From contig JACPYM010000064.1 in the NCBI GenBank assembly GCA_016196035.1, positions 1 through 64,000 on the forward strand: a DNA stretch of 64,000 nt. The letters are read 5' to 3'. Origin of the DNA: Acidobacteriota bacterium. Its GTDB lineage: Bacteria > Acidobacteriota > Blastocatellia > RBC074. Position 1 is the first letter of the stretch. Every line of letters starts with the position of its first letter. The notes below the pieces were generated by a model. That model was not told the DNA's origin. It made no database searches and was given only the letters and a program-made list of their open reading frames with translations. Shown here piece after piece: positions 9,024 to 9,842 of this stretch. Position numbers and translations under genes: made by a program.

Positions 9024-9061
9024 GAGCAGAGACCGGTTCAGTGCGCTGCCGATCTCTGCTC
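9024..9061 (-). terminator. Intrinsic terminator of tRNA-Arg
   Basis: A 9-bp stem GAGCAGAGA/TCTCTGCTC (9053-9061 with 9024-9032), followed on the minus strand by a short T-rich run, 10 nt past the tRNA 3' end. The spacing fits termination of the tRNA transcript. Confidence 0.6.
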
Positions 9062-9109
9062 GCTTGGAAGTACCCCCGGCACGGCTCGAACGTGCGACCC
9101 TCTGCTTAG

Positions 9110-9765
9110 CCTACCACTCCGGATTTCCCCGGCCCCGCACGAACTTCGCACGAGTTGTAGTCTGGACCATATCTTAGGCATTTCAGCCTGGATGCGTATG
9201 GCCTCTACGGAACCCCAATGTAATCATCAGCGAAATTCACGTTCTTCATCTGATGATTCTTAGGCGACTCAATTCTCAAGCTGACAGAGACATTGACCTG
9301 TTCTGCCTTAAAGTAATAACACTTGTCAGTGTCAGGACAATAGACGCAGAAAACATCAACTTGCGCTTTATCAACTTGCTTACCGTGCGAGCCATTTCTG
9401 TCAGCCCACCAATTCATCAGGTTGACTAACAAAACGCCTCGGTTCGCGCGCCGATATTTAACCTGAATTCTTATGAAGCGAGTGCCATCATAAGCAACCA
9501 GATCAAACGGCGCGTGCTCGGTTGAAGGGAATAAAACCAAATACCCTTTTTCAACCAAATCACAGTAAGCCTTTGCCACGCCTAAGTCGCCTTTACTTTT
9601 GGTGTGATGTCGCTGAATTTCCATAAACACCTCACCTCTAGGTAAAGGCAAAATTGTCAGGTTTCCTCGGTGTTGTCATAGACTGCACGCGGCAGTCCTT
9701 AGAGATTCACCGATATAGCACCCTCCACTGTTTGAGTTGTTTTTCCCCAAACAGGCTCCTGATTG
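9110..9765 (-). ncRNA. Self-splicing group I intron in tRNA-Arg(UCU)
   Basis: The 656-nt insert has the hallmarks of a group I ribozyme. Near its 3' end (9164-9175) is AAGATATGGTCC, close to the conserved S element. P7 forms between GGCCAT (9203-9198) and ATGGTC (9170-9165). Between them is a P8 hairpin AGGC/GCCT (9189-9186 with 9179-9176). Further hairpins occur at 9681-9697 (6 bp, P2-like), 9728-9754 (7 bp) and 9119-9132 (P9-like). The last base is G (9110), the expected omega-G, directly before the 3' exon. P1 and the exact subgroup are not resolved. It carries a homing endonuclease gene. Confidence 0.88.
9205..9624 (-). CDS. Intron-encoded PD-(D/E)XK homing endonuclease
   Basis: A 139-residue small endonuclease of the PD-(D/E)XK group, like I-Ssp6803I from a cyanobacterial tRNA-fMet intron. 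It should cut an intronless tRNA-Arg allele and let the intron copy itself. The N-terminal helix KGDLGVAKAYCDLVEKGY is followed by the active-site strands: D41 in APFDLVAYD and Q54/K56 in IQVKY (the QXK form). A WW patch and a pair of cysteines lie in the C-terminal half. The start at 9624 has GAGGTGAGGTG just upstream; an earlier ATG at 9651 precedes that site. The stop codon overlaps the edge of the P7 strand, so gene and ribozyme core interlock. Base composition is more AT-rich than its neighbours. Confidence 0.85.
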   Translation of the reverse strand: MEIQRHHTKSKGDLGVAKAYCDLVEKGYLVLFPSTEHAPFDLVAYDGTRFIRIQVKYRRANRGVLLVNLMNWWADRNGSHGKQVDKAQVDVFCVYCPDTDKCYYFKAEQVNVSVSLRIESPKNHQMKNVNFADDYIGVP

Positions 9766-9813
9766 AAGGCAGATGCTCTATCCCCTGAGCTACGGGGGCG
9801 TACAACGATTGGT

Positions 9814-9842
9814 AATTTACGGCATCGGTTCAGGCTAGGCAA
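9814..9842 (-). promoter_or_regulatory. Sigma70-type promoter of tRNA-Arg
   Basis: On the minus strand TTGCCT (9842-9837) and TAAATT (9819-9814) are separated by exactly 17 bp, and the tRNA 5' end is 15 nt further on. Confidence 0.65.

Follow-up and report, generated by a model that had tools for sequence, protein, structure and literature searches.

A probable mobile group I intron with a predicted PD-(D/E)XK homing endonuclease in an acidobacterial tRNA-Arg(UCU) gene

We found that a tRNA-Arg(UCU) gene on the minus strand of the window (the whole stretch of 64,000 nucleotides analysed here) runs from 9799 to 9071 and is interrupted between U34 and C35. We consider it highly probable that the interruption is a mobile, self-splicing group I intron with a homing endonuclease; splicing, cleavage and homing are processes that we infer from sequence. 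The sequence-only reading of this DNA had placed a tRNA-Arg(UCU) split in its anticodon at 9071–9799, and had described an insert of 656 nt with a terminal G, an AAGATATGGTCC element, P7 and P8 helices, and a 139-residue ORF with D41, Q54 and K56. All of these are present as described. It had also taken the host to be an acidobacterium, and the nearest named relatives are indeed Acidobacteriota. The features are the following.

9766–9799, minus strand: 5′ exon of tRNA-Arg(UCU), ending ...TCTGC-CTT, through U34 (ARAGORN on the joined exons)
9110–9765, minus strand: predicted group I intron of 656 nt, starting with C and ending with G
9756–9758, minus strand: guide sequence GAG, pairing with exon CTT (P1, U34·G wobble at the splice site)
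9728–9754, minus strand: P2 hairpin, CTGTTTG/CAAACAG (94.6% of cells paired, 60.5% when shuffled)
9718–9723, minus strand: P3 5′ strand GGGTGC, with its 3′ strand GCATCC at 9195–9190 (100% paired, 71.6% when shuffled)
9668–9712, minus strand: P4–P5 region, P4 being CGGTG/CACCG (98.5% paired, 92.4% when shuffled)
9663–9666, minus strand: P6 5′ strand GGAA, with its 3′ strand TTCC at 9212–9209 (94% of cells paired)
9630–9638, minus strand: Shine-Dalgarno-like GAGGTGAGG ahead of the ORF start (direct reading)
9205–9624, minus strand: predicted PD-(D/E)XK homing endonuclease ORF, 139 aa, in the P6 loop, with ATG at 9624 and stop TAG at 9207–9205
9165–9203, minus strand: P7, P3′, P8 and J8/7, with P7 formed by GGCCATA (9203–9197) and TATGGTC (9171–9165), and P8 at 9189–9176
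9119–9132, minus strand: P9 hairpin with a GAAA tetraloop, CCGGG-GAAA-TCCGG (core alignment and direct reading)
9071–9109, minus strand: 3′ exon of tRNA-Arg(UCU), CTAA-GCAGA..., from C35 (ARAGORN on the joined exons)
9024–9061, minus strand: probable terminator, a long GC hairpin followed by TTT, directly 3′ of the tRNA (direct reading)

When the exons were joined by hand (GCCCCCGTAGCTCAGGGGATAGAGCATCTGCCTTCTAAGCAGAGGGTCGCACGTTCGAGCCGTGCCGGGGGTA), ARAGORN returned tRNA-Arg(tct) with a complete cloverleaf and the anticodon loop CTTCTAA. At default settings, ARAGORN called no tRNA on the intron-containing gene; with introns allowed it gave a tRNA-Ser, which we rejected because the hand-joined exons show that its halves were mis-joined. 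A promoter scan upstream of the split tRNA found none at the scan threshold, and direct reading shows TTGCCT-17-TAAATT at 9842–9814, which is kept in relatives. Rfam matches to mir-7558 in the GC hairpin at 9024–9061 were set aside as spurious.

The genome of the window (G000) has a second, intron-free tRNA-Arg(UCU), located in a 15-gene tRNA array on contig C2. Thus, loss of splicing at the window copy would not necessarily be lethal, and the window copy may not be the sole source of tRNA-Arg(UCU) in its genome. The intact array gene also lends itself to a reading in which the split gene is a pseudogene left by a dead insertion and the array tRNA does the work. We find this very improbable. 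The exons of the split gene still give a complete cloverleaf, in which the T arm differs from that of relatives by compensatory changes; the ribozyme core is conserved and, like the ORF, intact. Additionally, the array tRNA has a different acceptor and anticodon stem (CTCGT-CTTCTAA-ACGAG), scores below most housekeeping tRNAs, and does not resemble the tRNA-Arg(UCU) found in relatives.

Several side observations concern the other tRNA genes of G000. There are two dense tRNA arrays, of 15 genes (C2:166900-168800, L001/L083; L numbers are individual loci) and 12 genes (C67:19400-20950, L002/L084). Both contain low-scoring, odd tRNAs, such as a short tRNA-Leu (aag/gag), and exist alongside the scattered housekeeping tRNA genes. 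An HNH nuclease-like ORF (L083:11400-12029) begins inside the array tRNA-Arg(tct). We considered an apparent tRNA half at C123:73431 as a further intron and rejected it. This 3′ remnant of tRNA-Arg(CCU) (L077, about 73.4 kb) adjoins an integrase-like gene about 18 kb from the intact tRNA-Arg(CCU) at C123:55272. It looks like an integrase attachment remnant, probably from an integrated element with its attachment site.

The insert itself has the helices of a group I ribozyme. Across a set of 40 related introns with the ORF cut out, double-sided changes numbered 83 in P3, 32 in P8, 92 in P2 and 8 in P4, and P8 was 100% paired compared with 76.5% in the control, in which partners were shuffled and relatedness was ignored. 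The variety of pair types (for example, GC, CG and TA at the first P3 pair) is hard to explain otherwise than by covariation. P4 shows a T-A to G-C change in 8 introns, the G-C pairs of P6 are invariant across all 40, and P7 occurs in two forms, GGCCATA/TATGGTC or GACTAYA/TATAGTC, with both sides changing together. The P5a and P9 helices assigned in the window align poorly across the 40 and were excluded from this support. P1 is short: exon bases C32-U33-U34 pair with GAG, and the first intron base pairs with the preceding G. A P1 of three exon pairs and one intron pair counts against a mobile group I intron. The GGAG guide is conserved in 38 of the 40 introns, and the U·G pair of P1 at the 5′ exon end and the terminal G are found in the window and in nearly all relatives. 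The window intron lies in a tRNA and has a GAAA loop on P9; these are two of three traits of subgroup IC3, the third being a short P5, and the intron may belong to this subgroup.

A group I covariance search had been proposed by the sequence-only reading as a check, and its outcome was mixed. The Rfam model RF00028 did not match the window copy even at E≤10, and Rfam gave no group I match on the ORF-bearing loci. The window copy was most likely missed because of its ORF insert. Neobacillus and Cytobacillus have, in the same tRNA and at the same split base, introns of 287–289 nt without a nuclease ORF. RF00028 matches these siblings along the entire model, with scores of 29.8 (E=7e-6) and 24.9 bits (E=2e-4) that fall short of the gathering score of 50. 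Through the core, the window intron aligns with them. It is conceivable that the window holds an insert of another type beside a nuclease gene and no group I intron, as the missing RF00028 match would have it, but we give this next to no credence. The covariation across 40 introns, the group I model on the ORF-less siblings with their full-length alignment, and the U·G pair at the 5′ splice site with the terminal G of the intron all contradict it. Thus, our analysis supports the group I assignment already made by the sequence-only reading; we find P3–P8 and P4–P6 helices with a conserved core. As Rfam gives such a copy no score and ARAGORN skips it by default, a genome can seem to be missing a tRNA gene that is in fact present.

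The ORF in the P6 loop encodes a protein that matches Pfam PDDEXK_5 (PF11645) with 140 bits against a cut-off of 26. A search of the PDB with the single window protein found nothing, whereas a profile of 53 relatives matched 2ost (I-Ssp6803I) with E 6e-9 and the catalytic stretch aligned. D41 and K56 are invariant in these relatives and Q54 is kept in at least 90%. An AlphaFold2 model (pLDDT 88.7) had 2ost as its first four fold matches, with a best TM of 0.75 and E 1e-10. NCBIfam offered no name for the protein; PHROG 5018, which has no assigned function, matches the window protein, a protein of phage Sf-FR1 and a Nostoc protein. These results support the prediction that the ORF product is a PD-(D/E)XK homing endonuclease of the I-Ssp6803I type.

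The end of the ORF appears to have a second use. Intact intron-borne ORFs end in CCG-TAG followed by AGACTAYACG or AGGCCATACG, and their stop is always TAG; free-standing members of the family have TAA, TGA or TAG stops and other endings. The bases at the ORF end are the 3′ strand of P6 (TTCC, which pairs with the GGAA after P4), J6/7 and P7. Thus, the coding end and the stop codon would also serve the ribozyme.

Comparison with related genomes, which the sequence-only reading had also called for, found tRNA-Arg(UCU) without an intron in six of the 11 genomes of the acidobacterial family (G001–G006), including one of the same genus as the window (G003). The intron is present in four others (G000, G007, G009 and G010); the G010 copy contains an assembly gap and its 3′ half was left out. 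No tRNA-Arg(UCU) of this kind was seen in G008, which is 83% complete. Over the stretch examined around each of the six intact loci, at least one neighbour of the split tRNA gene is kept: a ketopantoate-reductase-like gene at five (all except G005), a response-regulator-like gene at five (all except G004) and a DinB-like gene at two. Thus, the distribution of the intron is sporadic against empty sites. ORFs are broken in three sister introns (L090, L091 and L162), and the intron is single-copy in its genome, which counts against mobility. Between the family's ORF copies, dN/dS was about 0.1 (0.07–0.12) for the pairs that could be computed; the Biopython code is experimental, one pair was near saturation and several gave no value. 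Judged by these ratios, the endonuclease ORF is under purifying selection.

Could the intron still splice and yet have lost its mobility, being passed on vertically within this lineage with the endonuclease as a passenger? Within the family, the intron copies have neighbouring genes in common, the endonuclease tree mostly follows phylum, and there is one copy per genome, all of which would fit. We nevertheless regard this as unlikely, because the tRNA is intact in a same-genus relative and in five others, the endonuclease was present in only four Acidobacteriota genomes of a sample of 396, and selection on the ORF is purifying. We favour a mobile intron, and the coexistence of intact, decayed and empty states is the pattern to be expected if it invades, decays and is lost in a cycle. 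The sequence-only reading called the intron active or recently active. This is likely in view of the intact ORF, the low dN/dS, the sporadic distribution and the decayed sister ORFs.

Other introns and relatives were noted in these genomes. Past the gap in G010 (L086:3420-3620) lie a divergent second P7–P9 and a mismatching tRNA 3′ half, which a tandem duplication may have left behind. Group I introns that lack an ORF and score above the Rfam cut-off occur in G003, G005, G007, G008 and G010 (L165–L170); several lie in tRNAs whose anticodon is CAU (tRNA-Ile or Met). In G004, a distant nuclease relative (L048, 23% identity, stop-containing) lies directly downstream of an intact tRNA-Arg(CCU).

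Based on these results, we propose a model with two parts. At the RNA level, the intron would fold into P1–P9 and a guanosine would attack after U34, at the U·G of P1; joining of U34 to C35 would then give a normal tRNA-Arg. This part follows the predicted structure. At the DNA level, the product of the P6-loop ORF may cut an intronless tRNA-Arg(UCU) gene at its near-palindromic anticodon stem-loop, and repair from an intron-bearing copy would insert the intron. Homology and the sporadic pattern suggest this second part. The last codons of the ORF would double as the 3′ strand of P6, with the TAG stop in J6/7.

The endonuclease belongs to a family dedicated to tRNA-Arg(UCU). With only the protein as query, a scan of 84,980 species genomes by a pattern search that favours close relatives yielded 80 loci. 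Relatives occur in at least seven bacterial phyla, and the hits cover Acidobacteriota, Actinomycetota, Bacillota, Bacteroidota, Rhodothermota, Ignavibacteriota, Myxococcota, Pseudomonadota and Cyanobacteriota. At 36 loci the gene is inside this intron, 34 with clean boundaries and two (L086 and L117) cut by gaps. At three others the tRNA carries an ORF-less intron and the nuclease gene follows 123–190 nt downstream of that tRNA. Free-standing genes number 37, each no more than about 110 nt from an intact tRNA-Arg(UCU); of the rest, three are decayed pieces (L119, L120 and L164) and one, L160, is 962 nt away. The split is CTT/CTAA at every intron locus except two in Ignavibacteria (L113 and L116), where the same intron is in tRNA-Arg(UCG) with the split CTT/CGAA and the guide GGAC in place of GGAG; here the intron has jumped to another tRNA. 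As the same split base recurs at more than 30 loci found by protein similarity alone, the split in the window is not due to chance. The host that the sequence-only reading called less usual is so with respect to the literature searched; for the introns of this family, tRNA-Arg(UCU) is the standard one.

We also considered whether tRNAs beside free-standing nucleases always have a changed, resistant anticodon arm, and rejected this, since many keep the consensus GC-CTTCTAA-GC. A search of plasmids for the endonuclease gave no match. The decayed pieces, in Sporosarcina and Bacillus sp. REN10, combine intron and nuclease remains near tRNA remnants. In more than 20 Nostocales genomes (L134, L136–L143, L145–L159, L161 and L163), a free-standing nuclease lies 62–75 nt downstream of tRNA-Arg(UCU) and appears to be a resident gene that has some additional role; that of L136 has a C-terminal module like an HNH endonuclease family (phrog_15471).

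Phages carry the nuclease as well. In a viral collection, 21 of 22 relatives adjoin tRNA-Arg(UCU), mostly 60–140 nt downstream and in tRNA clusters; the neighbour in L176 was called tRNA-Pyl by ARAGORN, yet has the loop CTTCTAA. Synechococcus phage Sf-FR1 and Acinetobacter phage Herod show the same arrangement. L093 is filed as gammaproteobacterial; its contig equals that of the viral L176 in length and appears to be the same one. At three Bacillota loci (L097, L103 and L115), an ORF-less intron interrupts tRNA-Arg(UCU) and the nuclease is just outside, downstream of the tRNA. By direct reading, the free-standing gene of L097 has TAAAATTACACGAGTCGTA after it, a sequence similar to TAGAGACTACACGTGTCGCA of the intron (P7–P3′), and the neighbouring ORF-less intron keeps ...GAGGTTCCGTAGAG. 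This P7–P3′-like relic points to an earlier location of the gene within an intron. On the endonuclease tree, intron-borne and free-standing members are clustered, mostly by phylum, with 8 changes compared with 30.7 when shuffled; the tree has 138 columns and an arbitrary root, and does not settle which state came first.

We tentatively suggest, with more doubt than confidence, that one endonuclease lineage specialized on tRNA-Arg(UCU) moves among three homes: inside a bacterial tRNA intron, free-standing beside a bacterial tRNA, and free-standing beside the tRNA-Arg(UCU) of a phage cluster. Phages would be the vehicle, carrying the nuclease, and sometimes the intron as well, into further bacterial phyla. 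If this is true, the series of states is a natural record of nucleases entering and leaving introns. As intron-borne, escaped and free-standing forms of one nuclease occur at one tRNA, and also in phages, the union of intron and nuclease can be tested directly.

Mobile tRNA introns are a known kind, and the tRNA-Arg(UCU) family adds to them, with hosts in Acidobacteriota, Bacillota, Bacteroidota, Rhodothermota, Ignavibacteriota (as UCG) and Gammaproteobacteria. Bacterial tRNA group I introns have been reviewed from tRNA-Leu(UAA) and tRNA-fMet in cyanobacteria and from alpha- and betaproteobacteria (PMC4033280), and four bacterial tRNA host genes were counted as of 2007 (PMC1995217). We found no description of bacterial tRNA-Arg(UCU) introns or of a phage association in the open-access literature, a scope that does not establish priority. 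The tRNA-fMet intron of Synechocystis PCC 6803 has 655 nt and encodes I-Ssp6803I of 150 aa, the described example of a PD-(D/E)XK endonuclease in such an intron (PMC1995217). Like the window intron, it is a group I intron in the anticodon region of a tRNA, and their proteins share a fold and profile homology; the hosts differ (fMet and Arg-UCU), identity is about 20%, and the window family spans many phyla and is also free-standing. A group I intron in the tRNA-Arg(CCU) of Bartonella has been shown to splice (PMC7717549). This intron (BbgpI) and that of Agrobacterium, both alphaproteobacterial, are in a different isoacceptor from the UCU of the window, and the Bartonella locus, about 308 nt including the tRNA, is too short for an endonuclease ORF. 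The introns of Azoarcus tRNA-Ile(CAU) and cyanobacterial tRNA-Leu(UAA) have the same general core, but differ in tRNA and position. The TAGAGACTANACG-type motifs of the window intron are presumably those of the Azoarcus intron, and to our knowledge neither the Azoarcus nor the cyanobacterial tRNA-Leu(UAA) intron has an ORF. Last, the phage members resemble T4 SegB and other free-standing phage endonucleases of tRNA clusters in standing beside a tRNA. SegB belongs to a different nuclease family, and the family described here differs further in being tied to one tRNA, tRNA-Arg(UCU).
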